A stretch of DNA of 47,977 nt from a virus. The stretch spans positions 1-47,977 of IMG/VR virus record IMGVR_UViG_3300032242_001291. One strand, given 5' to 3'. The position numbers and the translations under genes are program-made. Below the pieces are notes generated by a model. It did not search any database, had not been told where the DNA came from, and worked only from the letters and a program-made list of their open reading frames with translations. Shown here piece after piece: positions 10,631-39,374 of the stretch; positions within the stretch are counted from its first letter, which is position 1; every line of letters begins with the position of its first letter.

Positions 10631-13600
10631 ATGTCAGTTACAAGCCGCCAAAATAATATATTTCTAGCTGAAGATTGGAAGAAAATTTACCAATCTTTTA
10701 AGAATGCTGATTTCACTAGTTATGATTTTGAAAATCTACGCCGTGTGATGATTGCTTATCTTAGAGAAAATTATCCAGAAGATTTCAATGATTATATTGA
10801 ATCTAGCGAATATCTTGCTTTGATTGACCTTATCGCATTTCTCGGACAAAGCCTTGCCTTCCGTATTGACATGAATGCTAGGGAAAATTTCCTAGAACTA
10901 GCAGAACGCAGGGAAAGTATATTAAGACTTGCACAATTAATAAGTTATAATCCTAAGCGTAATATCTGTGCCAATGGTTTACTTAAAGTTGAATCTGTAT
11001 CTACGACAGAATCGATTATTGACTCTACTGGCAGGAATTTACAAAATATTGAAGTATTATGGAATGATATTACTAATAGTAATTGGTTTGATCAATTTGT
11101 TAAAATACTTAATGCTTCTATGATAACTGGAAATGAATTTGGATTACCAAGAGCAAGTGCATATGTAAACAATATATGGACTGAACAGTATCAGATTAAT
11201 AGTAGTATAACTAATTTACCTATCTTTCCTTTCAGTAAAACTATAGATGGAAAAACATATTCTTTTGAAGCTACTAGTACTGTAATAGATATAGATCCTA
11301 TTACAAAAGATAGTATAATACGTGAAGATATTCCATATCTTTACAATCAAGTTTCAGTTATTTACAGAGATGATGCTACAGGATATGGTAGTAACAATAC
11401 TGGATTTTTCTTCCATTTTCGACAGGGAAGTTTAAATCAACAAGATTTTACATTAACTAATCCTACCACTAATCAAATAGTCAATATAACTGATACAAAT
11501 ATTAACAATGATGATGTTTGGTTATACTTGTTAGATAATAATAACAATGAATCGGTATTATGGACTAAAGTTCCTGCTATTACAGGAAATAATATAATTT
11601 ATAATAGTATTGATAAAACTATTAAAAATATATATAGTGTCCAAACAGCAACAAATGATTCAGTAAATCTAATATTTGCCGACGGAGTTTTTGGTAATTT
11701 ACCCAAAGGATCTTTTCGCTGCTATTACAGAACATCAAATGGACTTTCATATATTATCAATCCAAGAGATATGAGAAGTATTGTTATTAGTATTCCTTAT
11801 ATTTCTGCTGCTGGATCTAGTGAATCTATTAGATTTGTTATATCATTAAAAGCATCAGTAACAACAGCAACGGCTAGTGAATCTAATGATGAAATTAGAT
11901 TAAATGCTCCATCAACATATTACACACAGAATAGAATGATTACTGGTGAAGATTATAATCTAGCACCTCTATCTGTTAGTCAAAGTATAGCTAAAATTAA
12001 ATCAATTAATCGCACTTCTAGCGGAATTAGTAGAAATTTTGACATTATTGATGCTACTGGAAATTATAGTACTACTTCATCTTTTTGTACTGACGGTATC
12101 ATTTATAGAGAAAATATAGAACAAAAATTTATTTTTAAATTTAATTCTAGGACTGATATTGATAATGTTATAGTGAATCAGATTCAGCCTATAACTAAAC
12201 TCCACTCTTTAAGAGATTTTTATTATGAATATTTTGATCCTATTAATTTAGCAGATCCTCGTCCAATTTTTAATCAAGTAACATCTTCCTACAATGAAGT
12301 TACTGGATATCTAACAAATAATACAGGAAATGTATTAAAATTAGGATCCTTCACTGGTGATACTACAAAATACATTGAACCCGGAGCCCTAATAAAATTT
12401 ATTCCTCCAAACACTCAATCTGGAAATCCTCAATATTTTACAACTAGTGGTAAGATAACATCGACTTCTTCTGCAACCACTACTGACATTATATGGGCTA
12501 AAGTTATTTCTGTAGTAGGCGATGGAACTGCAAATAATTTAGGAAAATTAACTACCGGAATTGGACCTCTAACACTCAATGTTAAGATTCCAACAGGTGC
12601 TCAGATATCACGAATCATTCCTAAGTTTCTAGGATATATTCCTACTGATATACAGTCATTGATGATGGATTTAATATTTAATTATAAAAATTTCGGATTA
12701 CGTTATGACATCATAACTAGAAACTGGAATATTATACAAGAAAAAGATTTAAATTTATATAATAATTGGAAATCTGTAAATGATACTTCTGGTAGTAAGT
12801 TAGATAGTAGTTGGTTAATTTCATTAGAAACCAATGGTGAAAAATATACAGTAACATATAGAGGATTGGAATATTATTTTGAATCAATAAAGGAAAATCG
12901 TTTCTTCTTTGACGGAACAAGGAAAATATATGATAGTACTACTGGTAAAATACAGAAAGATAAAGTTTCTGTATTGAAAATTAATAAATCCTTAACTAGT
13001 GCAACAGGATCAAGTTTAGGTATAGATTATCCATGGCAGATAATTGGAAATACTATTGATAATAATGGATATATTAGTAGTAAGTCTGTAAAAATTACTT
13101 TCTGGGATGAAAACGATGACGGTGTTGTTGATAATCCTGATGCATTTAATCTAATTGTTGATCCTAGGTCTACTAATATAGATACTGGTTATTATAATAA
13201 TTTTATCTTTTTTGAAAAATATATTACTGACAATTATATAGAAGATTATCGATATGTTTCAAACGATACAAATATGTTTGAAATATTTCCTCTAGAAAGT
13301 TTTATATCTAATATCATGTCATATCCTGATGGACAATTATTTTATTTTTATCAAAGTGATATGATAAAACAATTTAATAAATCAACAGGATTGTTAACAG
13401 TTACTTTAGATTATTATGCAGTATTAGGACGTTCAGACATATATTTCCATTACTTACATAATGCTGATTCTACTACTAGGATTGATCCAAGTTCAACTAA
13501 TATTATGGATTTATATATTTTAACTAAAGATTATGATACTGCTTATCGACTATATCTTAATGGTATAACATCAGTTATACCATTACCGCCTAGCAGCACT

Positions 13601-14116
13601 GCTTTAAGACTAACATTTGGTAAAAATCTTGATAATATAAAAAGTATTAGTGATGATCTAATTTATCATCCAGTAACTTATAAAGTATTATTTGGAAGTA
13701 CAGCAGATCCTTATCTACAAGCATCTTTTAAAGTAATAAAAAATAATGAACAAGTTATTACTGATAACGATGTAAAGGCACGTATCATTACAGCAATTAA
13801 TGAATTTTTTAGATTAGATAATTGGGATTTTGGAGATACATTTTATTTTACCGAACTTTCAACTTATGTAATGAATAAAGTTTCACCTTATATAACATCA
13901 TTTGTTATTGTTCCTACAAATAGTAATCAAGTTTATGGTAGTTTACAACAGATTATTTCAGCACCAGATCAGATATTCATCAGCGGCGCAACTGTTAATG
14001 ACATTGAAATAATCCCAGCAATAACTGCTACAAGATTAAACGCATCAGGTTACATAGTAACAACATCAGTTGTTGATATTAATAATACAAATATAAAGAG
14101 TTCTACAAGTTACTAA
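10631..14116 (+). CDS. 6: Baseplate wedge protein gp6 (extended)
   Basis: The N-terminal 160 residues match gp6/gpJ-like wedge proteins: FENLRRVMIAYLRENYPEDF, EYLALIDLIAFLGQSLAFRI, DMNARENFLELAERRESILR and LAQLISYNPKR. In T4, gp6 dimers tie the wedges into the baseplate ring. The middle part contains FADGVFGNLPKGSFRCYYR and the C-terminal part LYILTKDYDTAYR and VKARIITAINEFF, which is typical of gp6. At 1161 aa it is nearly twice T4 gp6 (660 aa). The extra length appears to be between about residues 540 and 960 and resembles the Asn/Ser/Thr-rich beta material of the gp7-like neighbour. GAGG at 10617-10620 serves as ribosome binding site. Confidence 0.85.
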   Translation: MSVTSRQNNIFLAEDWKKIYQSFKNADFTSYDFENLRRVMIAYLRENYPEDFNDYIESSEYLALIDLIAFLGQSLAFRIDMNARENFLELAERRESILRLAQLISYNPKRNICANGLLKVESVSTTESIIDSTGRNLQNIEVLWNDITNSNWFDQFVKILNASMITGNEFGLPRASAYVNNIWTEQYQINSSITNLPIFPFSKTIDGKTYSFEATSTVIDIDPITKDSIIREDIPYLYNQVSVIYRDDATGYGSNNTGFFFHFRQGSLNQQDFTLTNPTTNQIVNITDTNINNDDVWLYLLDNNNNESVLWTKVPAITGNNIIYNSIDKTIKNIYSVQTATNDSVNLIFADGVFGNLPKGSFRCYYRTSNGLSYIINPRDMRSIVISIPYISAAGSSESIRFVISLKASVTTATASESNDEIRLNAPSTYYTQNRMITGEDYNLAPLSVSQSIAKIKSINRTSSGISRNFDIIDATGNYSTTSSFCTDGIIYRENIEQKFIFKFNSRTDIDNVIVNQIQPITKLHSLRDFYYEYFDPINLADPRPIFNQVTSSYNEVTGYLTNNTGNVLKLGSFTGDTTKYIEPGALIKFIPPNTQSGNPQYFTTSGKITSTSSATTTDIIWAKVISVVGDGTANNLGKLTTGIGPLTLNVKIPTGAQISRIIPKFLGYIPTDIQSLMMDLIFNYKNFGLRYDIITRNWNIIQEKDLNLYNNWKSVNDTSGSKLDSSWLISLETNGEKYTVTYRGLEYYFESIKENRFFFDGTRKIYDSTTGKIQKDKVSVLKINKSLTSATGSSLGIDYPWQIIGNTIDNNGYISSKSVKITFWDENDDGVVDNPDAFNLIVDPRSTNIDTGYYNNFIFFEKYITDNYIEDYRYVSNDTNMFEIFPLESFISNIMSYPDGQLFYFYQSDMIKQFNKSTGLLTVTLDYYAVLGRSDIYFHYLHNADSTTRIDPSSTNIMDLYILTKDYDTAYRLYLNGITSVIPLPPSSTALRLTFGKNLDNIKSISDDLIYHPVTYKVLFGSTADPYLQASFKVIKNNEQVITDNDVKARIITAINEFFRLDNWDFGDTFYFTELSTYVMNKVSPYITSFVIVPTNSNQVYGSLQQIISAPDQIFISGATVNDIEIIPAITATRLNASGYIVTTSVVDINNTNIKSSTSY

Positions 14117-14135: not shown

Positions 14136-17100
14136 ATGGCTCAGAATAATCAAGACGAATTCCCAATTAATGTAGGTCTAGAAAGTCAGACAATCAGGGA
14201 GACTGCTAGACATCTTCCAAGTTTCTTTCGTACAGATTCAAACAAAAAATTCTTAGGAGGAACGTTAGATCCTTTAACACAACCTGGAAAACTAACTAGG
14301 ATTAATTCCTATGTTGGTCGTCGAGATATTCCTAATTATCTTTTTAGTGATAATTATGTTGTCGAAACTACAAACGCTAGACAGAATTATCAATTAGAAC
14401 CATCTTATGTTTATGAAGATGCTGTTACAGGTAAAGTTAATTGGTATGCTGACTATAATGATTATATGAATAGTTTGCGATATTTTGGTGCTTTTACCGG
14501 AAATCATAGTAATCTAAACAAGAGTGAAGCATATTCTTGGGATCCTAATATTGATTGGGATAAATTTGTTAATTATAGAGAATATTATTGGCTTCCAAAT
14601 GGTCCAGATACTATAACTATCTATGGTGAAAATGAGTCAATCGTTTCAACATATCTAGTCACAGGACGTCTAGATAATGATAATTCTGTTTATATATTTT
14701 CTCCTACGGTTAATAATATAACTTCAACTGGTCTAGTTGCAAATCCGCGACTTACTCTTTACAGAGGACAAACTTATACTTTTAATATCAGTGCTACTGG
14801 TTATCCATTCTGCATTAAAACTCGCCCTGAAACAGGTACAGGTTATTTTTATAACAATGGAGTTAGTGCTCAATCAGTACAAAATGGTACAGTAACATTT
14901 ACTGTACCATATGAGGCACCTAGTGTACTTTATTATCTAAACAATAATGATGTAAATTCTGTTGGTACAATAGAAATTGCTGATATTAAAGATGCAACAT
15001 TTTTAGATATTGATTTAACTATATCCGGAAAGAAAACTTTTACTAGTGCTAATGGTATTGAATTTATTAATGGTCTTAAGATTAAATTTGAAGGAAATAT
15101 AGTTCCTGCAAAATATGCAGTAGATACTTGGTATGTTGAAGGAGTTGGTGAACGTATTAAATTAATTAATTCTAAAGATTTAGATACTCCAGTAACATAT
15201 GGAGAAATATTAGATACGCCATTTGATAATCAACCATTTGATTCCTTACCTTGGGAAACTGCTGAAAATTATTCTTCTACTAAAGATTATATCTTAATGA
15301 ATAGAGCATCAAGAGATCAAAATACTTGGTCAAGGAATAATCGTTGGTTCCACATTAACGTAATAAATGCGACAGCAAAGGCAAATGATCAGATATCTTT
15401 ATTTGATCAAACACAGAGAGCCATACGTCCTATTATTGAGTTTAAACCCAATTTAAAATTATTTAAAAACGGATGGATTGCAAAACAAGATGTTGATTTA
15501 GTAGATACAAAAACTACTGATATTTTTTCTACCATAGAAGGAACTATCAGTTATGTTATTGATGAAGAACCTATATTACCGGGATATCGTATACTCTTTA
15601 CCGCAGATACTGATCCAACAGTTAATGGAAGGATATATGTAGTAACTAAAATATTTAATGCCAATAAAAATAGGACACAACTTTCTCTACAGAGTGTAGA
15701 CGATACTCAACCTCTTAATGGACAAGTTGTTTATGTTACAAAAGGTACAGTTAATAAAGGTTGTTCTTATTATTATCAGAACAATAGTTGGTTATTATCC
15801 CAGAAAAAAATAATGGTAAATCAATCACCTTTATTTGATTTATTTGATGAAGAATATAATAGTTTTTCAGATACTACTGTGTATCCTTATAATAATTTTA
15901 CTGGCAACAAATTTTTTAGTTATCTACAAGGTACTGGTAAAACTGATAATGAATTAGGATTTCCATTAAGTTATCATTCTATAGATAATATTGGAGATAT
16001 ACAGTTTTCTTTTGATTTACAAAAGCAATCATGGACATATCAAAATAATAATTTATTAAAAAAAATAAATTCTTATACAGGATTTATTAGAAAATTAAAT
16101 GATGATGATACATTTTCATATACAAATGGATGGGTCACAACATATAAAAGTCTAGAACAACCTGTAGTTAGAGTTTTAAAAGTTACTACCGCAACAGATT
16201 TGATCCCTATTGACGTATATGACAATAGTGCTAACATATCTGGATTATCTGTAAGAGTTTATGTTAATGATAAAAAAGTAGATCCATCTACTATATCTTT
16301 CCAAAATATACAAGGATATTATTATATAAAATTTTCTTCACAGTTAGCAGTAGATGATAAAGTTGTTTATAAAGTTAAATCAACTATTAATAAAAACGCT
16401 AAAGGATATTATGAGATTCCACATAGTTGGCAGAATAATCCTTTAAATGAAACTATAGATACATTTACTTTTGGTGAAGTAATTGATCATGTTGGTACTA
16501 TAATTGATAATATATTAACATTTAATGGAGATTTTCCAGGAATTAGCAATCTATCTAATCTCGGACCTATATCTCATTATGGACAGCGTTTCCTACAACA
16601 TGCCGGATCAATGCCATTATCTTCATTTGTGATGACTGATAAATTTGCCAATATAGTAAAAGCACTAAGATATACAGCCCAAAAATATACTGCATTTAAG
16701 AAAGAATTTATACGTTTAGCAGGAATAACATCAGCAGATGGTACAGTTGCTGAAATAGTTGATTTTATCCTAGCAGATTATTCAGCAGCAAAGTATCTAG
16801 ACATATCTGCATTTTATTATTCAGATATGGCACCAGCTGGTGGTGCTGCATCTATTAGAAATTATAAAGTAGTTGATCCACGTATTCCTTCATTTGTTAT
16901 TGATAGTATCTTTACACCTATGACTAGTAGTAAAAGAGTGATATTAGTTTATGTAAATGACATACAATTAATTTACGGAATTGATTATGTATTTGAAACT
17001 ACAGATGCATTTCTTAAGATAATATCACCATTGAATGTTGGTGATAGAATTACGATCAAAGATTATTCTAACACAGATGGAAGATCATATATCCCATATA

Positions 17101-20100
17101 CTCCGTCTAAATTAGGATTATATCCTAGTTATGTTCCTAGGATTTACATTGATGATACTTATACTACTCCAACTAAAGTTATCCAAGGACACGACGGCAG
17201 TATTATCGTAGCTTATAATGATTACAGAGATGATTTAATCTTAGAATTAGAAAAAAGGATATTTAATTGTCGTAAAGTTGAATATGATCCGTCCATGTTT
17301 AATATTGATGATATTATTGGTGGATATTATCGTAAAAACGAATTTACTAAAGAAGAAATTAATAGTCTATTAGTGGGTGATTTTTTAAGATGGAATTCAA
17401 TAGCAGATTTAAATTTAAACAGTAATGATTATTATGTTGATGAGAATTCGTTTACATACAATTATAGAAATTGTCTAGATCCAAATAGTCTAGAAGGTCT
17501 TTATGGATATTGGAGAGGTATTTACAAATATTTTTATGATACAGATCGTCCTCATACATGTCCTTGGGAAATGCAGGGATTTACTATTAAACCATCTTGG
17601 TGGGATTCTGTGTATGGAGAAGCGCCCTATACAAGCGAAAATAAAATTATGTGGGATAATATTGAAAAAGGCATAATTCTTGATCCTATTAGACCTATCA
17701 TAAATCTTAGATATCGTAGGCCCGGATTAAGTTCTCATATACCTGTTGATTCTGATGGAAAACTTATTAGTCCGTTAGACAGTAATTTAGCAATTAATTT
17801 TTCATTAATTAATGCTAAAAATGAATATGTATTTGGAGACCAAAACCCTGTAGAAACAGCCTGGAGGAGATCAAGTGAATATCCTTATTCTGTAATTTCA
17901 GCATTATGTGTATTGAGAGGATCTGAATTTATTGGTAAAATGTGGGATAGATTTACGATTAAACGCAATATAGCTGGACAAGTATATTCTACAGTCTCTG
18001 GATTAAAAATACAGCCTTCAAAATTAACATATCCAAATATTCCTGTAGGAAATCCAAATGATTTAACTGTACCAGTAACAGTTACTTCTGGATTAGTTAA
18101 TTTTATTGAAGAATATCTATTTGATAAAAAGTATACTAATATTAATTCATATAAAGAAACATTAACTAATTTAAATACTAAATTATCATATCGCATAGGT
18201 GGATATACTAGCAAAGATCATATTAATGTTTTACTTGATAGTCGTAGTCCAAATGCATCAGGTACAGTATTCTTACCTGTTGAAAACTATAAAATATTCT
18301 ATAATAAGAGTTCTCCAATTGATACTATTTCTTATAGCGGAGTAGTTATAGAAAAAGTAGGAAGCTCTTATCCTCTATGGATTTCTAACTATCGATATCA
18401 TATCGGTGATAGAATATTATTCCAGGGAGAGGTTTATCATTGTATACTTACACATATCAGTAATAGTGATATTTCACTCACAGCAGCACAGAAATTTAAT
18501 CAAGATTCTAATAATTGGAATAGAGAAACAATATCTAAAATTGGTTACAAAATTAGAGGTTATGATTCTAAAAAAAATTATTTTGAAGTTTTAGGATATC
18601 GAGAAAGTCAGAATGACATAACAATAAATGTTGGTGGAATTTCAGAATCCTATATTACCTGGACAGGAAACAATAAAAATTTTATAGATTTAACAGAAGC
18701 CGAAAAAACAGCATTAGCCACGAAACAAATATATTATAATAAAGGTCAGATAGTAAAAGTCGATAATAACAAGTATTATCGTGCTATTGTTGGTCACACA
18801 GCATCTTCAACATTTGAAGATGATATTTCAAAATGGGCACCATTGGCTAAACTTCCAATTGTTGGTGGAGTTTCTGCTATACGCCGATCGAGATTTGGAA
18901 AGACACCTATCCGTGTTAATTATGGAACTGTATTTTCTACAATACAAGAAGTAGTTGATTTCTTATTATGTTATCAAAAAAGATTAGAATTGTGGGGATT
19001 TTCGTTTGATGATTATAATAAAGATCTAGATATACCATTAACATGGTTAACAAGTGCTAAAGAATTTATGTTCTGGACACTACAAAATTGGGCATCGGGT
19101 GCTGTAATAACTCTAAGTCCATCATCAAATAAAATAAATTTTACTCCTGTTATTAATGCTTCGGTTGATAATACAGATACTGATTTTTATGATTATAGCA
19201 TTTTCAAAGCAGACGGATCTCCTCTTAAGGCTGATTTAACAGATGTCTATCGTGAAAGATCTGGATTTGTAATTAAACCTACCTTACAATCAAATGATGG
19301 TATATTCCATATAAGGGCAAATTTAGTTTATAAAGAACATGTGATATTATTTGATAATGTCTCCATATTCAATGATGTATTATATGATAAGGTTCCAGGA
19401 TACAGACAGGGTCGATTAAAGATACTCGGTTATAAGACTATGTTTTGGGATGGTAGTTATACTAGTCCAGGATTTATGTATGATGATGCTGAAATATTAA
19501 ATTGGCAACCAAATACAGATTATATGATAGGTGATGTTGTTAGATATAAAAATTATTACTTTACAGCCCCTACTAAGATATTAAGTAAACATGATTTTAA
19601 TTATGCCGATTGGAAACAATTAAAATCAGCACCTACATCTGGATTAATCGCTAATTTTGATTATAAAGCAGAACAATTCCGTGATTTTTATAGTTTAGAT
19701 GCTAGCATGTTTGATTCAAAACAGGAAAATCTAGCAAGACATCTAATAGGATATCAACCTAGACAATATCTCGCTAATATCATCAATGACGATGTTGCTC
19801 AATATAAATTCTATCAAGGATTTATTAAGGAAAAAGGAACTCTCAATAGTATAACTAAACTTTTCGATGCACTTCGCGCTAGTGGGTTTAGTAATATTGA
19901 TATTAAAGAAGAATGGGCATTTAAGATAGGTGAATATGGAGCATCCGATGCCTATACAGAAATAGAGTTTCCGTTAGATGAAAAGAAATTCCGTCATAAC
20001 CCGCAAAATATAAATCTAACACAGAATAGTAAAGATTTTAATGATCTTTCTATATATAACGTGACTGCAAATGATATTTCAATTAAACCTAGCGATTATA

Positions 20101-23100
20101 ATAGTAATCCTTTTAAAACAGTTACAATTGACAACACGCAGGATAATTATGGGGTATTTAAGTATCAAGTAGCAGGATATGTTATGGATACCGATGTTGA
20201 TCATATAGTGATTAACGAAGCAGCATTATTAAATTATGACATATCTCTGTTTAAAGAAAAAGATAAGATATGGTTAGGATATACTTCAAATAATGATTGG
20301 AATGTTTATGAATATCTCAATACTAACATAATAATTACAGGTTGGACAGTATCTGACAATGTTATCGCATTAGAATGTAATGTTATTCCTGATCTTAGCG
20401 TTAATGATATTGTAGTAATATCAAATCTAGATTCGATTAACGGATCTTACAAAGTACAGCGTGTTTATAATAATATCGTTGAGATTTTTACATTTAATTC
20501 TACTATATTCACTATACAAGATAATGTAACATCTGGTGTAATACACGTCTTGAAATCTTCTCGATATGCATCATTAGACGCAGTATCGGATAAAAGATAT
20601 AATACTAAAGATATCCGTGGAGAGATTATTTGGGTGGATAATGATGCATCTGGAAGTTGGGTAGTATTCCAAAATCAAGATGCATTTACTAGCTCAGAAT
20701 TACCTGCGATTTATCAAGTAGATAATCAACAATACGGATATGAAGTTAAAGTGAATGCTAATGGAAATTGGATGTTTGTATCAACAATATCTAATGGATC
20801 TGGATTAGTAGTAGTCTTTAACCGCCCATCTAATTCTACTAGTTGGAATTTCATACAGACATTAATATTACCAAAAACATATCTTGTTTCAATATCAGGT
20901 ACAGAAAAATTTGGAATTAGTGTAGATGTTACTGATGACGGATCTATAGTAGCTATTGGTAGTATTGGTGTTAGCGATCTTAAAACAGCATATTCTAATA
21001 ATATCTACGTTGGTAGCGAAATCGGAATCAGTAGTGGATTAAACGCTCAAGGTGCTGTTATAACATTTGCTTATAATATCAATAGCACTAGATATGAATT
21101 AGATACAGTTATTACATCATATGCTCCAGTTTCTAATGAAAAATTTGGAAGTAAAGTAAAAATATCTAATGATGTAACTAATGTCTGGTTATTAGTTTCT
21201 AGTAATAATCCTAGCGTTGGTACTGGACAAGTACAGATATTTAGAAAGACAGATGGAATTTGGACTGCTAATTCACAGCAATACTTAGATTTTACTAATC
21301 ATTTAGGATCATCAGTTCCGTCATTAACAAGTGGCGGAATGTATGGTTATGCCTTAGATTGTACAGCAGGTGCTTTAAGGATCGCTGTATCTGCTCCATT
21401 TACAGGTGCTGGTGAAGTTTATGTATTCCAACGAAACAACTATACATTTACTTTAGTTGAAGTATTGAATTCTACTACTATGAATACAGATATAATTCCA
21501 AATACAGTTAGTGGTAATACTTACCTACATGATAAGGATATGTTTGGATACAGTCTTGCTATCACAGATAGATCACTCTTTGTATCATCTCCAAATGATG
21601 ACACTAAAGGATTTAATGTTGGATCTGTTTATGTATTTGCTAAAACTAATGGAATAACATTCAATAGTCTTTATAAGTTAGAACAACATATTTTACCTCC
21701 AATAGTTTCTACTAATGAAAGATTTGGTACTAAGGTATCGATTAATAAATCTAATAATGTTTTAGCTATCTCAGCAATTGGAGGTGATAGCCTAATTCCT
21801 GTAACTTTTGACAACTACTCAGATAGAATTTCTTCTACAGGATATGTATTAGATCCATTGAGTCATAAAATTACCGGAACTACGTTTGATAATAGTTCTA
21901 CAGTATTCTATGGTAAAAAAGCATATACTGGTGCTGTTTATGTTTATAATAGATTTGATGATAATTTCATCTATGGTGATAGACTACGTCCAGTAAATGA
22001 CCTTGAGAAGAATGACAACTTCGGTCAATCTATCTCAGTAACAGATGATACTATTGTTGTTGGAACTCCAAATAGATCTGTTAGTAACCATGTCTATGGT
22101 ACAGTGTTTACATTTGATTATACTGATTTAAGTTGGAATATTAAACAATCTCAAAATTCATTAATTGATATTAATAAATTTAAAAAAGCATTCATTTACG
22201 ATACCAAAAAAAATACTCTAATTGAAAATCTAGATTTTTATGATCCAGCAAAAGGACGTATTCCATCTATCGTAGATCAAGAAATTAAATACCAAACTTA
22301 TTATGATCCTGCTGTTTATCAGTATGGTGTGCCTAGCGAAGTATCTGTAGATCTAAGCATGCCTTGGACTGATCAACACGTTGGCGAAGTATGGTGGAAT
22401 CTTTCAACTGTTAAGTTCACATGGTATGAACAGGGTGATTCGACTTATAGGAACAATAACTGGGGTCGTATCTTTACAGGATGTACTATTGATATTTACG
22501 AATGGGTTGAAACAACATATCTTCCAAGTCAATGGGCAACTTTAGCAGATACTGAAAAAGGACTTGCTCTAGGTATAAGCGGTATACCTAAGGATATTGA
22601 CGATTTTACTTGGAGCAGCAAGTACAAATATGATCCAATCAGCGGAACTAAAACAACATTATATTATTATTGGGTTAAAAACAAGGCTACAGTTCCAAAT
22701 ATTACAACTAGAAATCTAAGTTGTGCTAATATATCTAATTTAATTTTAGATCCTAGATCACAAGGCTACCGATATATTTTTGTTACAAGTGAAAGTACTT
22801 TATCATTATCTAATATTAGCACTAAGTTAGTTGACACTAACATATCATTAAACCTTCAATTTTATGAAGTAGACAACACAGAATTATTGACACACAATGA
22901 ATATGTGTTAATAGCTAAAGATGATCCTATGGCGATTATTCCTTCTTCAATCGAAACTAAATGGTTTGATAGTTTAATAGGATCAAATCAATCAGGACAA
23001 TCCTTACCAGATTTAAAACTCAACAAGAGACAGCGATATGGTAATTTAAATAGTCCAAGACAGACCTGGTTTATCAATCGACTTGAGGCGTTAAAACAAT

Positions 23101-26100
23101 TATTTGAATATGTAAATAGTGTTTTAATAAATGTAAATTCACCAATAGTTGATGATATTAATTTTGCTAATTTAATGCAGAATGATCCAGAACCAACTTT
23201 AAATTCTAGTGATATTGATCAAATAGTTGATGTATTATATGAATTAAAGTTTATTGGAACTACAAAATTTAAGGCTGCAAAATTATCCTTACAGATTAAA
23301 GATGGTAAACTAAGCAGTGTTAATATAGATGCTCCGGGTTACGGTTATGGGCATAATAAAATTTATTCTACTGATGAATATGGTAATGCTAATAGATGGT
23401 ATGGACCTAATGTTACTATTGTCGGAACCGGAACAGGCGCAGTTGTACAGACAGTTGTTGATAATCAAGGACAGATTGTAAATGCCTTGATTATTAAACC
23501 AGGATCTAAATATGACAATACCAGCACAAAGATAATCATAAGAGACCATGCTGTACTAGTTAGAGTCGATGAAGAAGCAAATAATGCTTGGTGTATACAC
23601 TCTTGGGATATAACTAATCAAGAATGGGTGAGAATTAAAACACAGTCTTATGATGTAACAAGATACTGGTCTTATAAAGATTGGTATGCTACAGGATTTG
23701 GACTAGTTTCGGACGTTACTTTCCAAGTTGAAAGGCCTGTTGATCTCAATGGTTTACCTGCACTAATAGGAGATATTGTTAAGATTAACAGTGTCGGTTA
23801 TAGTGGTAACTGGCTATTACTATTAAGATATAATGATTCTTATAGTTCAGATTTCACTAATGATTATATAGTCGTTGGTAGAGAAAAAGGAACTATACAG
23901 TTTTCGGATAAACTTTATAATATTAATCAAGATCTAGGATTTGATACTAGTTCTAGTTTTGATCTAAGTTTATATGATCAGAGTTCGACTATTGAATTGA
24001 GGATAATATTAGAAACTTTACGAGACTACATCTTAATCAATGATTTGAAAATTGAATATATAAAAACATTCTTTAACAGTGTTTATTATGTATTGAATGA
24101 ACAATTATATACCGATTGGTGTTTTAAGACTAGTTTCTTAAAAGCCAATCATACAGTTGGAAAACTTAGGAAAAGAATTACTTTCCAAAGTGATGAAATC
24201 GCTAGTTACGAGTCATTTATTGAGGAAGCTAAACCTTATAAATCTAAAGTTAGAGAATGGGTAAGTTTATATCAATATACTGAAGAAACACCTTGTGCAG
24301 TAACTGATTTTGATTTGCCATCTTATTATAATAATAATCCTAAATCAGACAGGATTGAAAGAACTACTTTAGAGAGTGATAATATTAATACATATCCTTG
24401 GAAGAGTTGGTTAGATCATTACACTTATCAGATATCTGAGATAGTTATTAGTGATGGTGGAAGTAATTATACAACTACTCCTATCGTTATCATATCAGGC
24501 GGCGGAGGCACTGGTGCTAAAGCCTCGGCTTATGTTTCTAAAGGAAGTGTTTATAAGATTGTAGTTAATAATCCAGGATATGGATATACATCTGCTCCCA
24601 TAATTTTTATAAGTGGTGGTAACGGAAATGTAGATGCTACAAGGGCAAAAGCATATGCTATAATTGGAAATGGATTAGTTAGAACTAATCTAATAGGTAT
24701 GAAATTTGATAGATATACAAAATCTTATGTTGTAGATAATTTTAGATATACAGATATCTTTACAAGTACAAGTAATCAAACATCATTTAAATTAACATAT
24801 GCTCCAGAAATTGAAAAGAGCAAATTTACCATTATAGTTAATGGTCTTGCTTATTATGGATCTCAATATACAGTTTCTATTATTAAAAAAACACATGACA
24901 CTTATACAGCCTTAGAAGGATATGTTATATTTTCTACAGCACCAATTACCGGTTCTACTGTTGAAATAACTTATGATAAAAATATTAAGATATATTCAGC
25001 AGCCGATAGGACCAATTATGCTTATGATCCTACAGTAGGACAATATGGCAAAGATCTCGCACAATTAATGACGGGTATAGATTATGGTGGAGTTTCAATT
25101 ACTAGTATTGATTTTGAAATTGGCGGTGGTTGGGATATCCTACCATGGGATGTTTCATCGTGGGATAATGTTATTTCTAGTAATGACGATTATGTTGTAG
25201 GTTCGGATGGTATAGAAAGATCATTTACATTACCTTATGTTCCGGCTCTAGGCGAAACTATTAATGTCTATCTAAACAACATTAGAATAGATGATAATAG
25301 GATATTGAATTCATTTGTTGGAAATGGTGTTAATAAAGTTATAACTATTCCTGTAGGAATAACACTAACTGATGGGGATATTTTAACTTTCCGTAAAAGC
25401 ACAAGCGATGGATCAGTATTACCGTCTGATAGAAGTTTATTTGATACACTTATCACTGGAGGAGAATTTTCATATTCATCAGCAACCGGTGTAAACCCTG
25501 AGGATATAATAATCGACGGAGATGGACTAGTTACTTCTGATACTAGTTATGGACCTGAGGAATTAGTACAAGGTCAAGTATTTGATACTTTAGATATTAA
25601 AGTATATCATACTCCGTCAGCAGGCGGACCAAATGTTTACATTACCAATTATACTGGCAACGGTAGTACTAATAACTACCTATTTACTAAATTACCGGGT
25701 ACTTTAGATGGTATGATAGTATTAGTTGATAATCAACAAGTAGGATTTACCATTGATTATATTAATATGAATGTAATACTTGATACGATTCCAAATAATA
25801 ATTCTAAGATAGTCATCATAATAATTGATACAGCCGGATATGATATATTAGATAAAGAGACATTTATTGGTGATGGAGTAACTTCAGAATTCCTTACAGC
25901 AGCATATTATTCTAAAAATAATATTACTGTCTTTGTAACTGTTGATGGGATTGAAGTTGGTGCAGTAATCAAATCTAGTGATTCTAGATTTAGTACTATT
26001 GGTAATGTTTTGGTACAATTAGATACAGCACCAAATATAAATTCTGTTGTACAGATAATGGTATTTTCTGGTAATATACAGAAATTTAGCAAGGTAACTA

Positions 26101-27668
26101 ATGAAAACATTACATTAATACCGGGTCAGAAGATTTATACACTAACTACGATTCCATCTGTAAAACAACCTGCATCAGCAAATGTTTTTGTTGTAATAGA
26201 CGGAGAATATCTATCTGCACCTGATTATAAAAATTATGTCTATTATAAAAATAATCCAAATGATATAATCGTTTTAGAAATTAATGATCCTAGGTATCTC
26301 CCTTATACTCTAACTCAAAATGATATTAATGTATATCGTAATGGTATAAAATTAGTTTCAATTCTAGATTTCGTATTAGATTCAGCGCAAAACTCTGTTT
26401 CTTTAGAATATAATGTAGCGGAAAATGGAGATGAAATCATTGTAGAAATTCTCAAGAGAAATGATTATCAAATAATTAACAATCAGATAATTTTAACAAA
26501 TAATGTTAATTTAGTTAACAAATCTAATATGATAGTAACTACATTCACAAATCATGATATAGTTAAAAATAAGAGGACTAATAAAGGATTTACATTTACA
26601 ACGGGTTATGATGTTTTAGGATATGATTCTAATAGATTTGATTTATTAACCACATCATTTAATACTAGCGGTATATTTGATTTACCGAGATCAGTAACTG
26701 ATACTAGCGGAGTATTTGTAATACTAAGCCATAAAATATTAATGCCTAATGTTGACTATGTTGTACTTGATAATAGGAATCAGATACGAGTAATATTACC
26801 AGAAATATTAACTGGACATGATTATATTGAAATTATCACTACAAATGATCAAACTATACATCCTACTTTTGGATTTAAGATCTTTAAAGACATGTTGAAT
26901 AGAAATTCTTATAAAGCCTTAGATAAAACTAGATCAACTGTACTTGCCCAAGATTTAAATATGTTTGATACAAGTATAACTGTAATTGATGGTTCTGTTT
27001 TATCTTCAGTTGATAATACTCAAAATTCAGGAACTAGGATTCCGGGTGTTATTGAAATAAATGGAGAGAGAATTGAATATTTTGTTAAGAATGATAATGT
27101 TTTAAGCCAATTACGACGTGGTACACTCGGAACTAACATAAATGATCTAGTGCCTGCAGGAACTAAGATATTCGATATGGGAACAAAAGTAACTGTACCG
27201 TATAGTGATACTGAAATTAAGAGAACAGCGTATGGAAATGGCACAAAACAGATATTTGATCTTGATTTTGTTCCAAAAGCACGATGTAGTAAAACAGATC
27301 CTGCGAAAACTCCAGTCTCTTTTAACTATAAAAAAACTATACCTTCAAATTATTTTCCATGTGATGAAATTGAGGTATATGTTGCTGGTCGTCGTTTAAT
27401 TAAGGATAGTATATATGTTTATGATCAATCGTTAGGACAAGATAGTTATAACTCTGCCGGTGACAAGCAAATCGAAGCAGAATTTTCCGTTGACGGTATT
27501 AGTAAATCAGTAAGATTAACTAAAGCACCGGATGCGGGAGCGTTAGTAGTAATCATATCAAAACAAGGAAAAACTTGGCAAAAACCAAATGAAAATCTAC
27601 CATTAGTTTATAGCACAACTGATATTGCTAGATTCTTGAACACTAAGCAGGTTGATTTACCTAAATAA
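14136..27668 (+). CDS. 7: Giant baseplate wedge protein, gp7-like, multidomain
   Basis: A single uninterrupted reading frame of 4510 codons, over a quarter of the window. The N-terminus (LPSFFRTDSNKKFLGGTLDP, SYVGRRDIPNYL, WDKFVNYREYYWLPNGPD) and the position after gp6 identify it as the gp7-type wedge protein (T4 gp7 is 1032 aa). Residues about 200-285 resemble a cupredoxin-like sandwich (LYRGQTYTFNISATGYPF). Residues 2200-2671 contain seven FG-GAP-like repeats starting at 2200, 2259, 2337, 2403, 2470, 2530 and 2629, probably a beta-propeller. Residues about 3435-3495 carry glycine-rich ISGGGGTGAKA units. Near 3643 is MTGIDYGGVSITSIDFE, and about 3690-4060 hold repeats of VGNGV/TGNGS/IGDGV type. 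LRRGTLGT lies near 4328. GGAG at 14119-14122 is a somewhat distant ribosome binding site. It probably serves both as wedge and as outward-facing adhesin. Confidence 0.8.
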   Translation: MAQNNQDEFPINVGLESQTIRETARHLPSFFRTDSNKKFLGGTLDPLTQPGKLTRINSYVGRRDIPNYLFSDNYVVETTNARQNYQLEPSYVYEDAVTGKVNWYADYNDYMNSLRYFGAFTGNHSNLNKSEAYSWDPNIDWDKFVNYREYYWLPNGPDTITIYGENESIVSTYLVTGRLDNDNSVYIFSPTVNNITSTGLVANPRLTLYRGQTYTFNISATGYPFCIKTRPETGTGYFYNNGVSAQSVQNGTVTFTVPYEAPSVLYYLNNNDVNSVGTIEIADIKDATFLDIDLTISGKKTFTSANGIEFINGLKIKFEGNIVPAKYAVDTWYVEGVGERIKLINSKDLDTPVTYGEILDTPFDNQPFDSLPWETAENYSSTKDYILMNRASRDQNTWSRNNRWFHINVINATAKANDQISLFDQTQRAIRPIIEFKPNLKLFKNGWIAKQDVDLVDTKTTDIFSTIEGTISYVIDEEPILPGYRILFTADTDPTVNGRIYVVTKIFNANKNRTQLSLQSVDDTQPLNGQVVYVTKGTVNKGCSYYYQNNSWLLSQKKIMVNQSPLFDLFDEEYNSFSDTTVYPYNNFTGNKFFSYLQGTGKTDNELGFPLSYHSIDNIGDIQFSFDLQKQSWTYQNNNLLKKINSYTGFIRKLNDDDTFSYTNGWVTTYKSLEQPVVRVLKVTTATDLIPIDVYDNSANISGLSVRVYVNDKKVDPSTISFQNIQGYYYIKFSSQLAVDDKVVYKVKSTINKNAKGYYEIPHSWQNNPLNETIDTFTFGEVIDHVGTIIDNILTFNGDFPGISNLSNLGPISHYGQRFLQHAGSMPLSSFVMTDKFANIVKALRYTAQKYTAFKKEFIRLAGITSADGTVAEIVDFILADYSAAKYLDISAFYYSDMAPAGGAASIRNYKVVDPRIPSFVIDSIFTPMTSSKRVILVYVNDIQLIYGIDYVFETTDAFLKIISPLNVGDRITIKDYSNTDGRSYIPYTPSKLGLYPSYVPRIYIDDTYTTPTKVIQGHDGSIIVAYNDYRDDLILELEKRIFNCRKVEYDPSMFNIDDIIGGYYRKNEFTKEEINSLLVGDFLRWNSIADLNLNSNDYYVDENSFTYNYRNCLDPNSLEGLYGYWRGIYKYFYDTDRPHTCPWEMQGFTIKPSWWDSVYGEAPYTSENKIMWDNIEKGIILDPIRPIINLRYRRPGLSSHIPVDSDGKLISPLDSNLAINFSLINAKNEYVFGDQNPVETAWRRSSEYPYSVISALCVLRGSEFIGKMWDRFTIKRNIAGQVYSTVSGLKIQPSKLTYPNIPVGNPNDLTVPVTVTSGLVNFIEEYLFDKKYTNINSYKETLTNLNTKLSYRIGGYTSKDHINVLLDSRSPNASGTVFLPVENYKIFYNKSSPIDTISYSGVVIEKVGSSYPLWISNYRYHIGDRILFQGEVYHCILTHISNSDISLTAAQKFNQDSNNWNRETISKIGYKIRGYDSKKNYFEVLGYRESQNDITINVGGISESYITWTGNNKNFIDLTEAEKTALATKQIYYNKGQIVKVDNNKYYRAIVGHTASSTFEDDISKWAPLAKLPIVGGVSAIRRSRFGKTPIRVNYGTVFSTIQEVVDFLLCYQKRLELWGFSFDDYNKDLDIPLTWLTSAKEFMFWTLQNWASGAVITLSPSSNKINFTPVINASVDNTDTDFYDYSIFKADGSPLKADLTDVYRERSGFVIKPTLQSNDGIFHIRANLVYKEHVILFDNVSIFNDVLYDKVPGYRQGRLKILGYKTMFWDGSYTSPGFMYDDAEILNWQPNTDYMIGDVVRYKNYYFTAPTKILSKHDFNYADWKQLKSAPTSGLIANFDYKAEQFRDFYSLDASMFDSKQENLARHLIGYQPRQYLANIINDDVAQYKFYQGFIKEKGTLNSITKLFDALRASGFSNIDIKEEWAFKIGEYGASDAYTEIEFPLDEKKFRHNPQNINLTQNSKDFNDLSIYNVTANDISIKPSDYNSNPFKTVTIDNTQDNYGVFKYQVAGYVMDTDVDHIVINEAALLNYDISLFKEKDKIWLGYTSNNDWNVYEYLNTNIIITGWTVSDNVIALECNVIPDLSVNDIVVISNLDSINGSYKVQRVYNNIVEIFTFNSTIFTIQDNVTSGVIHVLKSSRYASLDAVSDKRYNTKDIRGEIIWVDNDASGSWVVFQNQDAFTSSELPAIYQVDNQQYGYEVKVNANGNWMFVSTISNGSGLVVVFNRPSNSTSWNFIQTLILPKTYLVSISGTEKFGISVDVTDDGSIVAIGSIGVSDLKTAYSNNIYVGSEIGISSGLNAQGAVITFAYNINSTRYELDTVITSYAPVSNEKFGSKVKISNDVTNVWLLVSSNNPSVGTGQVQIFRKTDGIWTANSQQYLDFTNHLGSSVPSLTSGGMYGYALDCTAGALRIAVSAPFTGAGEVYVFQRNNYTFTLVEVLNSTTMNTDIIPNTVSGNTYLHDKDMFGYSLAITDRSLFVSSPNDDTKGFNVGSVYVFAKTNGITFNSLYKLEQHILPPIVSTNERFGTKVSINKSNNVLAISAIGGDSLIPVTFDNYSDRISSTGYVLDPLSHKITGTTFDNSSTVFYGKKAYTGAVYVYNRFDDNFIYGDRLRPVNDLEKNDNFGQSISVTDDTIVVGTPNRSVSNHVYGTVFTFDYTDLSWNIKQSQNSLIDINKFKKAFIYDTKKNTLIENLDFYDPAKGRIPSIVDQEIKYQTYYDPAVYQYGVPSEVSVDLSMPWTDQHVGEVWWNLSTVKFTWYEQGDSTYRNNNWGRIFTGCTIDIYEWVETTYLPSQWATLADTEKGLALGISGIPKDIDDFTWSSKYKYDPISGTKTTLYYYWVKNKATVPNITTRNLSCANISNLILDPRSQGYRYIFVTSESTLSLSNISTKLVDTNISLNLQFYEVDNTELLTHNEYVLIAKDDPMAIIPSSIETKWFDSLIGSNQSGQSLPDLKLNKRQRYGNLNSPRQTWFINRLEALKQLFEYVNSVLINVNSPIVDDINFANLMQNDPEPTLNSSDIDQIVDVLYELKFIGTTKFKAAKLSLQIKDGKLSSVNIDAPGYGYGHNKIYSTDEYGNANRWYGPNVTIVGTGTGAVVQTVVDNQGQIVNALIIKPGSKYDNTSTKIIIRDHAVLVRVDEEANNAWCIHSWDITNQEWVRIKTQSYDVTRYWSYKDWYATGFGLVSDVTFQVERPVDLNGLPALIGDIVKINSVGYSGNWLLLLRYNDSYSSDFTNDYIVVGREKGTIQFSDKLYNINQDLGFDTSSSFDLSLYDQSSTIELRIILETLRDYILINDLKIEYIKTFFNSVYYVLNEQLYTDWCFKTSFLKANHTVGKLRKRITFQSDEIASYESFIEEAKPYKSKVREWVSLYQYTEETPCAVTDFDLPSYYNNNPKSDRIERTTLESDNINTYPWKSWLDHYTYQISEIVISDGGSNYTTTPIVIISGGGGTGAKASAYVSKGSVYKIVVNNPGYGYTSAPIIFISGGNGNVDATRAKAYAIIGNGLVRTNLIGMKFDRYTKSYVVDNFRYTDIFTSTSNQTSFKLTYAPEIEKSKFTIIVNGLAYYGSQYTVSIIKKTHDTYTALEGYVIFSTAPITGSTVEITYDKNIKIYSAADRTNYAYDPTVGQYGKDLAQLMTGIDYGGVSITSIDFEIGGGWDILPWDVSSWDNVISSNDDYVVGSDGIERSFTLPYVPALGETINVYLNNIRIDDNRILNSFVGNGVNKVITIPVGITLTDGDILTFRKSTSDGSVLPSDRSLFDTLITGGEFSYSSATGVNPEDIIIDGDGLVTSDTSYGPEELVQGQVFDTLDIKVYHTPSAGGPNVYITNYTGNGSTNNYLFTKLPGTLDGMIVLVDNQQVGFTIDYINMNVILDTIPNNNSKIVIIIIDTAGYDILDKETFIGDGVTSEFLTAAYYSKNNITVFVTVDGIEVGAVIKSSDSRFSTIGNVLVQLDTAPNINSVVQIMVFSGNIQKFSKVTNENITLIPGQKIYTLTTIPSVKQPASANVFVVIDGEYLSAPDYKNYVYYKNNPNDIIVLEINDPRYLPYTLTQNDINVYRNGIKLVSILDFVLDSAQNSVSLEYNVAENGDEIIVEILKRNDYQIINNQIILTNNVNLVNKSNMIVTTFTNHDIVKNKRTNKGFTFTTGYDVLGYDSNRFDLLTTSFNTSGIFDLPRSVTDTSGVFVILSHKILMPNVDYVVLDNRNQIRVILPEILTGHDYIEIITTNDQTIHPTFGFKIFKDMLNRNSYKALDKTRSTVLAQDLNMFDTSITVIDGSVLSSVDNTQNSGTRIPGVIEINGERIEYFVKNDNVLSQLRRGTLGTNINDLVPAGTKIFDMGTKVTVPYSDTEIKRTAYGNGTKQIFDLDFVPKARCSKTDPAKTPVSFNYKKTIPSNYFPCDEIEVYVAGRRLIKDSIYVYDQSLGQDSYNSAGDKQIEAEFSVDGISKSVRLTKAPDAGALVVIISKQGKTWQKPNENLPLVYSTTDIARFLNTKQVDLPK
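20733..22146 (+). repeat. Region encoding seven FG-GAP-like propeller repeats
   Basis: Within the giant gp7-like protein, seven units begin with FG/YG followed by an alternating beta strand, as in YGYEVKVN, FGISVDVT, FGSKVKIS, YGYALDCT, FGYSLAIT, FGTKVSIN and FGQSISVT. Each continues into a (V/L)(A/V)(I/V)(S/G) strand and then an A/VYVF-type strand (GAVITFAY, GQVQIFRK, GEVYVFQR, GSVYVFAK, GAVYVYNR, GTVFTFDY). Unit lengths are 59 to 99 residues. Seven units is the number of blades in integrin-alpha type propellers. The repetition is in protein, not in DNA sequence. Confidence 0.65.
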
Positions 27669-28351: not shown

Positions 28352-30628
28352 ATGTCTTATAATATTAATTTTTCAGACCAAATTAACAATGGCGCACTTA
28401 TAGTTAATGATAACTCTATCAATACTTCTACAAGTTTAGGATTTCCCGGTAGAAATCAAAAAGGCTATGCTGTAACTATTTCTGAGAATTTCTTGCATCT
28501 ATTAGAAAATTTTGCAAATACTACTGCTCCTTTAAATCCAATTAAAGGACAACTTTGGTATGATAGTACAGAAGGTAGCCAAACACTAATGATTTATGAT
28601 GGTACTTCTTGGAAATCAGCAGGTGCTTTAAAAAAAGGCTCAACCCAACCAGATGTATCTACTAGTATACTTGGAGATCTTTGGGTCGATACTACTAATC
28701 AACAATTATATCTATATAATGGCGGTGGATGGGTATTAGTAGGACCAACATTTAGTAGTAGTAATGGTCGTAAAACAGGAGCCATTGCTGTGCCGATTAA
28801 TGATTCTACTAAGGATCGTATTGAACATATAGTTTTAATGAATTATGTAGATGATACTGTTGTATCTATAACTAGTACGACAGCATTTACTCCTCAGATA
28901 GGAATACCTGGATTTACTACTATTAATGTCGGTTTAAATCTTAGCAATTTATCAAATAAATTTTGGGGTACAAGTGAAAAGGCAGAAAACCTTGTTATAG
29001 GAAATACTGTTATTCCAGCATCTACATTCCTTAGATCTGATACTGCCAACATAGCCAATCAGGCTTTAACAATCAAGAATAATTCAGGATTGAGCCTAGG
29101 TGGTGAGTCACAGTTACAATTACGTATCACTGATTCAAAGGGAATAATTTATCATTCTACTCCGGCATCTAAATTAGACTTTAGAGTTAACGTGGGTTCC
29201 CCAACTTCCACTGAAACAACATTAATAAGTTTAGATGCCACGACTGGAAACGTAGGTATCGGGCGTAACAATTTTAATCCTACTGAATCTTTATCAGTTA
29301 TAGGTACAGGAAGTTTTACTGGATCATTAAAAATTACCAATGCAGATGATGTAGTTAGTCTATCATCATCTATAGGATCGTTTGTCGTAAGCGGTGGTGC
29401 TAAAATTTCTAAATCACTAATAGTTGGTAGCGGAATTATAGTCCAAGATAATCTATTACCTACAATTAACAATCATAGTAATATTGGATCATCTTCATTA
29501 CGTTTCGCTAATGTATATGCCACGTCACTTATTGGAAATTTAACTGGTAATGTTATCGGAAACGTTACTGGTAATGTTAACGGAAACGTTAACGGATCAT
29601 CATCTAGATTGATATCAAGTACCACATTCACAATTACTGGGGATGTGTCTGATCCTGTTGGATTTAGTTTTGATGGGTCATCGCAAATTTATTCTGCAGG
29701 ATCATTTACGATAGGTAATCGATATAAGATTGTAACGCCAGGTAATACTAATTTTATATCTATTGGTGCAGCTTCAAACACTGCTGGATTAATTTTTACA
29801 GCAACTGGAGTCGGATCAGGAAATGGTACTGCTACAGCAGTTAATATTCAGACATTTAATACAACAATATCACCTACATTTATTACTACAAAAACAGAAC
29901 TGAGTGATACACAAGATACTGATGAATTGCTAGTCTATAGACCATATACACCAGGCGGATTAATTCCAGGACTTTATAAAAGTTCTAAATCTACCTTTAT
30001 AAGCGATTTACCATTAGTGCCAATTGGCGCTATCTTTCCTTATGCTGGAGAAAATGCTCCTTCCGGATACTTACTATGTGACGGCAGCGAAAAACCAATA
30101 GGTCAGTATCAGAAACTTTTTAATATTATTAAGTACACCTATACTCCAAATACAAATACACTTGTTGGAGCAAGTACATTTAAACTTCCAGACCTAAGAG
30201 GTAGATTCCCATTAGGGCTATTAAACATGGATAATGGTGATCAGGTTAGGACTCCTAGCGGTACTACGGTTGACAGCGGCGGCGGAACTCCGAATCCATC
30301 TGAAACTACTAGAGTAAGAGATAGCACTGCTACAATACGAGGACAAGTTTCTGGTGCCGAACAGATAAAACTTGATATAACACAATTACCACAACATCAA
30401 CATACTCTTATTGGTGATACTGGCTCACAGTATTATGCTACTAATCCTCAGCAGAATTATCCCAATGATACTGGATCAATAAGGACAAATACTATTGGTA
30501 GCAATCCAGGACAAGCACTACCAAATACAGGTAATATTAACACATTAAATGATATTGGACAATCTATCGGTATAATGAACCCATATCTAACTATCAATTA
30601 TATAATTTATTCAGGGGTACATATCTAA
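28352..30628 (+). CDS. Tail fibre protein with C-terminal tail-collar domain
   Basis: A 758-aa fibre protein. The N-terminal module (about 1-125: FLHLLENFAN, NPIKGQLWYDS, GDLWVDTTNQQLYLYNGGGW) is shared with the next two genes and probably anchors the fibre. The middle is Ser/Thr/Asn-rich, with a VGIGRNNFNPTESLSVIGTG strand and a run of five GNxx units (about 395-414). The C-terminus (about 553-758) is a phage tail-collar domain, as in T4 gp12: IGAIFPYAGENAPSGYLLCD, FKLPDLRGRFPLG, THQHQH-like QLPQHQHT, and MNPYLTINYIIY. That domain ends receptor-binding short fibres. GGGAG precedes the ATG. The stop overlaps the next ATG by one base. Confidence 0.85.
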   Translation: MSYNINFSDQINNGALIVNDNSINTSTSLGFPGRNQKGYAVTISENFLHLLENFANTTAPLNPIKGQLWYDSTEGSQTLMIYDGTSWKSAGALKKGSTQPDVSTSILGDLWVDTTNQQLYLYNGGGWVLVGPTFSSSNGRKTGAIAVPINDSTKDRIEHIVLMNYVDDTVVSITSTTAFTPQIGIPGFTTINVGLNLSNLSNKFWGTSEKAENLVIGNTVIPASTFLRSDTANIANQALTIKNNSGLSLGGESQLQLRITDSKGIIYHSTPASKLDFRVNVGSPTSTETTLISLDATTGNVGIGRNNFNPTESLSVIGTGSFTGSLKITNADDVVSLSSSIGSFVVSGGAKISKSLIVGSGIIVQDNLLPTINNHSNIGSSSLRFANVYATSLIGNLTGNVIGNVTGNVNGNVNGSSSRLISSTTFTITGDVSDPVGFSFDGSSQIYSAGSFTIGNRYKIVTPGNTNFISIGAASNTAGLIFTATGVGSGNGTATAVNIQTFNTTISPTFITTKTELSDTQDTDELLVYRPYTPGGLIPGLYKSSKSTFISDLPLVPIGAIFPYAGENAPSGYLLCDGSEKPIGQYQKLFNIIKYTYTPNTNTLVGASTFKLPDLRGRFPLGLLNMDNGDQVRTPSGTTVDSGGGTPNPSETTRVRDSTATIRGQVSGAEQIKLDITQLPQHQHTLIGDTGSQYYATNPQQNYPNDTGSIRTNTIGSNPGQALPNTGNINTLNDIGQSIGIMNPYLTINYIIYSGVHI
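29534..29593 (+). repeat. Five tandem 12-bp units encoding GNxx in the fibre gene
   Basis: Units of the type GGTAATGTTAAC/GGAAACGTTACT repeat five times in frame, giving GNLT-GNVI-GNVT-GNVN-GNVN. Alternate units use GGT-AAT and GGA-AAC, so DNA identity between neighbours is partial. Such collagen-like or GN repeats are common in phage fibres and can change copy number by slippage or recombination. Confidence 0.85.
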
Positions 30629-31842: not shown

Positions 31843-31848
31843 TAAATA
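31841..31848 (+). promoter_or_regulatory. Late promoter octamer before the third fibre gene
   Basis: GATAAATA matches TATAAATA at 7 of 8 positions, in a 36-base gap. It overlaps the TGA stop of the second fibre gene. The expected start near 31854 gives a leader of about 25 bases containing AGGAG (31866-31870) before the ATG at 31879. This is the best-placed of the octamers in the window. Confidence 0.6.
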
Positions 31849-31878
31849 TCTTATAGATATGATTTAGGAGCCATTAGT

Positions 31879-39373: not shown

Positions 39374-39374
39374 T

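Follow-up and report, generated by a model that had tools for sequence, protein, structure and literature searches.

The closest described counterparts of the domain reported here are the β-propellers of integrin α chains. These propellers (αM, αV and α5 heads) have the seven-bladed FG-GAP fold that we predict for the phage domain over its full length, and likewise bear long insertions on one face, formed by the 2-3 and 4-1 loops of the blades, which in integrins makes up the ligand-binding face. FG-GAP propellers had also been recorded in proteins of viruses, a phage virion protein among them. In a Foldseek search of viral structures, our matches were giant-virus FG-GAP proteins and a few stand-alone phage proteins (E-values 1e-14 to 1e-27), with matching predicted folds in the 'hemagglutinin' of Atu_ph07 (A0A2L0UZX4), in H6WG31 of cyanophage S-TIM5, which is annotated as a virion protein, and in A0A481Z0W4 of Mimivirus LCMiAC01. 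By annotation these three are separate proteins, whereas the propeller described here is nested in the neighbour of a gp6-like protein. Sinorhizobium phage Phosso gp108 has FG-GAP_2 repeats (PF14312) too, but it is a separate protein and not a wedge neighbour; this giant protein of a cultured jumbo phage (L006:6063–16903) has at least 24 FG-GAP_2 repeats as well as LamG stretches. The propeller, the repeat family and the host protein are thus each known separately. We found no literature joining FG-GAP repeats with a phage baseplate, in a search that lay mostly outside subscription journals and preprints.

The window, by which we mean the whole stretch of 47,977 nucleotides analyzed from the virus record IMGVR_UViG_3300032242_001291, shows the gene order typical of T4-like jumbo myophages: a hub/lysozyme protein (7536–10136) is followed by a gp6-like wedge protein, a giant protein and fibre-like products (28352–33411). 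The propeller resides in the giant protein:

10631–14116, forward strand: gp6-like baseplate wedge protein, immediately 5' of the giant protein and synteny anchor (PHROG_10646, E-value 5e-290)
14136–27668, forward strand: giant virion protein of 4510 residues, host of the propeller; homologue of PHROG_10938, PA5oct gp355, SCTP-2 gp140 and Atu_ph07 gp180

The second reading frame is open throughout. Its product matches PHROG_10938 with an E-value of 9.7e-303 and is assigned to this family by homology over its body together with synteny with the gp6-like wedge gene. Homologues in PA5oct, Atu_ph07, CBB, Phosso and PBECO4 occupy the equivalent place, following the gp6-like wedge gene in those records that annotate it; the SCTP-2 homologue, of similar size, lies directly 3' of another very large ORF. 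The PA5oct homologue is annotated as a virion component by ESI-MS/MS, and phage phAPEC6 has a 382-kDa virion protein, gp245, adjoining its wedge protein (PMC7247149). Since the giant protein sits directly downstream of the gene 6 equivalent, it shares the position of T4 gene 7, although T4 gp7 has only 1032 residues against 4510. Homology to gp7 received no support from hhalign, in which a comparison with a single T4 gp7 sequence gave a probability of 0.2%, with no detectable similarity. The name 'baseplate protein', used in the preliminary description, is therefore inferred from synteny with the gp6-like wedge gene and from the detection of cultured homologues in virions by mass spectrometry, not from homology to T4 gp7. 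Two further modules occur elsewhere in this protein. Residues 3430–3501 (24423–24638) form a GxGYxxxPxVxxxGGGGxGA module matching PHROG_460, 'head closure Hc2' (E-value 9e-14), and residues 1415–1444 (18378–18467), among the most divergent regions of the protein, form a CBM5/12 module (chitin-binding type 3).

The propeller and its repeat units are located as follows:

20679–22151, forward strand: seven-bladed FG-GAP_2-type β-propeller, residues 2182–2672 (Pfam, AlphaFold2 model, structure matches, motif test)
20733–20909, forward strand: blade unit 1, residues 2200–2258 (model, motif test)
20910–21143, forward strand: blade unit 2, residues 2259–2336; in relatives, insertions fall mainly into its 2-3 loop
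21144–21341, forward strand: blade unit 3, residues 2337–2402 (model, motif test)
21342–21542, forward strand: blade unit 4, residues 2403–2469 (model, motif test)
21543–21722, forward strand: blade unit 5, residues 2470–2529; best Pfam FG-GAP_2 stretch
21723–22019, forward strand: blade unit 6, residues 2530–2628 (model, motif test)
22020–22151, forward strand: blade unit 7, residues 2629–2672 (model, motif test)

Seven units had been proposed to start at residues 2200, 2259, 2337, 2403, 2470, 2530 and 2629, and these starts are exact, residue 2200 corresponding to nucleotide 20733. The domain was placed correctly but is slightly longer than described, because it includes a strand that precedes unit 1. 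The repeat patterns proposed for the units proved looser: five units open with FG, but those at 2200 and 2403 open with YG; FG-x-S/K-V holds approximately, and the closing YVF strand is exact in two blades only, the others having VVF, ITF, QIF, YVY and FTF. A correspondingly loose motif ([FY]G.[SEKA][VILA] followed by G.V.x) nevertheless found seven units in residues 2191–2680 and none in the rest of the giant protein, whereas 2000 shuffles of the region yielded 0.03 units on average and two at most. Pfam FG-GAP_2 matched with E-values of 1.1e-14 in the whole protein (54.7 bits, against a curated cut-off of 23) and 1.9e-19 for the domain alone. In sequence comparisons with PDB, neither the propeller (E ≤ 1) nor the conserved block downstream of it had a match.

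Only two to three of the seven units pass the Pfam threshold singly, as might be expected if the FG/YG motifs had arisen by chance or belonged to another repeat fold, which forms no closed propeller. We consider this hardly credible, given the excess over the shuffled controls and the predicted structure. An AlphaFold2 model of residues 2136–2680 (545 residues), computed with an alignment of 76 environmental relatives, has a mean pLDDT of 90.8 and a pTM of 0.90, with strands present for all seven blades. In VIA-align it superimposes onto integrin αM with a Z-score of 32.6 (rmsd 3.2 Å, 360 residues), covering model residues 47–535 of 545, and all 50 entries listed score above 30 (Z 30–33), with integrin α heads matching at about 15% identity. 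Foldseek searches against PDB agree: the top 35 matches are all integrin α chains (E-value 9e-14), and non-integrin propellers follow from rank 36 on. The proposal of an FG-GAP-like propeller, for which a structure prediction compared with propeller folds had been suggested as a check, is thus borne out by motif count and model alike, and the end-to-end match to integrin heads suggests that the ring is closed. Neither of the outcomes named beforehand as refuting the proposal, a lack of circular blade packing or a count below six blades, came up in the prediction.

The domain lacks the DxDxDGxxD calcium loop of integrin propellers, which is found in none of the 117 propellers compared, where, as in the window, the turns between strands 1 and 2 have 3–5 residues. 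The suspected loss of metal binding is therefore upheld in its outcome but not in its detail, as the acidic residues have not been substituted; the entire 9-residue loop is missing, which is the FG-GAP_2 type. Together with the end-to-end alignment of the model, this makes it nearly certain that the predicted fold is an FG-GAP propeller of seven blades that lacks the Ca2+ loops of integrins. A further difference is the context: the phage propeller is nested inside a phage structural protein, and the thigh, calf and transmembrane domains of integrins have no Pfam match in its 4510 residues.

The boundaries of the nested domain emerge from comparison with the homologues of six cultured phages (PA5oct, SCTP-2, Atu_ph07, Phosso, CBB and PBECO4), none of which has the propeller in its giant protein:

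18861–20330, forward strand: conserved block upstream of the slot, residues 1576–2065, aligned in cultured relatives with matches that end at residues 1962–2075
20619–20678, forward strand: left neck motif GEIIWVDNDASGSWVVFQNQ, residues 2162–2181, kept in relatives without the propeller
22131–22169, forward strand: right neck motif SWNIKQSQNSLID, residues 2666–2678, kept in relatives without the propeller
22179–23138, forward strand: conserved block downstream of the slot, residues 2682–3001, aligned in cultured relatives and used for the tree

PA5oct gp355, SCTP-2 gp140, Atu_ph07 gp180, CBB gp236 and PBECO4 gp538 share homology with most of the giant protein, both before and after the slot. 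In all six pairwise alignments, similarity is lost at residues ~1973–2075 and regained at ~2662–2682. The slot measures 99–106 residues in CBB and PBECO4, and ~220–1440 residues of other sequence, unrelated to the propeller, in PA5oct, SCTP-2, Atu_ph07 and Phosso; the PHROG_460-like module occurs in many copies in the slots of Atu_ph07 and Phosso. A LamG domain that we suspected by eye in the SCTP-2 slot received no support from Pfam. Five SCTP-2-like environmental loci (L218, L219 and L222–L224) have slots of 560–764 residues that are not propellers, their sole Pfam match being sub-threshold (Gp18_dom_I).

Short motifs remain on either side of the slot, the left one with the pattern W-x-D-x4-G-x-W-x-V and the right one with S-W-x5-Q-x3-V-D. 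In PA5oct the two are directly adjacent (KVWIDSINSDNDWAVAVVSGSTITNIRSRQNLVD); SCTP-2, Atu_ph07 and Phosso show looser versions of this arrangement. The propeller thus appears to have been inserted between two neighboring strands, and we read the motifs as a putative two-strand β-hairpin neck, which would hold the propeller out from the baseplate.

Single-sequence patterns of the propeller alone retrieved no close relatives from IMG/VR, and no PHROG family captures the domain. Environmental relatives were gathered through scans with the conserved downstream block, a sample biased toward relatives of the window and of PA5oct. These scans yielded 191 loci with 0.93–0.99 of the propeller profile, some of which share a contig, and 117 propellers distinct at <80% identity, as well as eight SCTP-2-like loci without the propeller. 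Among 50,697 phage records, 60 have a recognizable giant protein, and in none of these giant proteins did tblastn find a match to the propeller; its only match in the records was the separate FG-GAP protein gp108 of Phosso. In a maximum-likelihood tree computed quickly from the downstream block, 100 of 100 propeller rows fall on one side of a branch with an SH-aLRT of 99. We counted L064, L078 and L124 as carriers, as they have the propeller though they lie below the strict column cut-off. On this tree the propeller would have changed once, by one gain or one loss, in either direction.

This distribution bears on what the propeller does. That nearly all members of the clade retain the propeller would also suit a structural role, and β-propellers are common platforms for protein-protein interactions. 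The propeller might be an internal docking or assembly domain that binds baseplate or fibre proteins, or a spacer in a larger baseplate, without contacting the host. Its presence in every recovered member of the clade and the single change on the tree are as one would see for a structural part, and fibre-like genes lie directly downstream. We regard docking as the main rival and a serious one, possible though on the whole doubtful. The opposite face of the propeller is not conserved in sequence either, and an exposed surface would better explain why one face carries carbohydrate-binding-like modules and inserts tens to hundreds of residues long.

These insertions are markedly one-sided. Among the 117 propellers, 176 loops of more than 40 residues lie on the 2-3/4-1 face and none on the opposite face, loop positions being sequence facts mapped onto the model. 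The principal sites are the 2-3 loops of blades 2, 4 and 6, together with the 4-1 loop that follows blade 3; the blade 6 loop is long in the window as well:

21777–21929, forward strand: long 2-3 loop of blade 6, residues 2548–2598, with the family signature TFDx3TTFDx3TxF (consensus of 76 relatives)

CBM5/12-like modules occur in loops of this face in 51 of the 117 propellers; Pfam supports CBM5/12 modules in 12 of 76 relatives, plus single examples. The 2-3 loop of blade 2 has 29 residues in the window but ~540 in a subclade. The long insertions presumably lie near the position of the αI domain in integrins. Since β-propellers in general often have longer loops on the 2-3/4-1 side, the asymmetry by itself does not prove display.

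The large blade-2 insert is found in L121 (7217–8833) and 47 other loci (for example L022, L055 and L067), mostly with ~540 residues (range 390–832). A model of the L121 insert (pLDDT 86.4) had no match in PDB with a Z-score of 8 or more; partial matches at Z-scores of 6–8, which is background level, included a subdomain of T4 gp7 and CBM5/12. At its base the insert resembles CBM5/12, with the remainder inserted into that module. As a candidate vWA/αI-like domain or known lectin it was rejected, as the L022 insert had no match in Pfam or PHROG.

Variation by substitution shows a different pattern. Between the window and its near relative L095, the propeller is 58% identical against ~80% in both flanks, but residues 1401–1600, 3001–3200 and 3801–4200 of the giant protein are about as divergent as the propeller. 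Hypervariability of the top face by substitution did not hold up: the strands are the most conserved parts, and the bottom turns are as variable as the top loops or more so. The one-sided variation, as far as sequences tell, is limited to loop length and module insertion.

We favor host contact over docking because unrelated insertions, many of which are carbohydrate-binding-like, are tolerated on a single face whereas ring and neck stay constant, and because the homologues form part of the virion and their genes lie among those of the tail tip. For this reading we weighed the lower identity of the propeller relative to its flanks and the detection of homologues in virions; against it count the substitutions, which do not favor the top face, and the similar divergence of other regions of the protein. 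The propeller would then be a single domain nested in a giant baseplate-associated protein of an uncultured jumbo myophage and carried on its two-strand neck, with the 2-3/4-1 face pointing outward and bearing exchangeable loops and small carbohydrate-binding-like modules, so as to serve, metal-free, as a platform for contact with a glycan or receptor on the host surface during adsorption. Apart from the predicted fold, each of these steps is conditional, and we judge the reading as a whole somewhat probable; for the function as a contact platform, taken separately, the evidence appears about evenly balanced. More tentatively, and with less confidence than doubt, we propose that a large clade of uncultured jumbo phages may have built an integrin-like adhesion head into a baseplate protein, one face of which would swap loops, CBM-like modules and a ~540-residue domain, as a host-contact device distinct from the separately encoded tail fibres.

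Some phage tailspikes have propeller catalytic domains, and the propeller could by analogy be a glycan-degrading enzyme. This seems very improbable: the best structure matches (Z 30–33) are the non-enzymatic integrin heads, Pfam gives no confident enzyme-family match, and near-invariant columns are very few among the 76 relatives; those listed are Gly, Trp and Phe, and they include no conserved set of acidic or catalytic residues.

Should the propeller act as a receptor platform, host recognition in many uncultured jumbo phages would proceed via a domain built into the baseplate, and host prediction could draw on its variable loops as a testable handle; as a docking domain, it would still account for part of the size of a giant virion protein. 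Downstream of the tail genes, at 38009–40841 and 46105–47337, the window also encodes two radical SAM proteins, in neighboring ORFs, and a UDP-glucose/GDP-mannose dehydrogenase; these may form a cassette related to glycans or cofactors.
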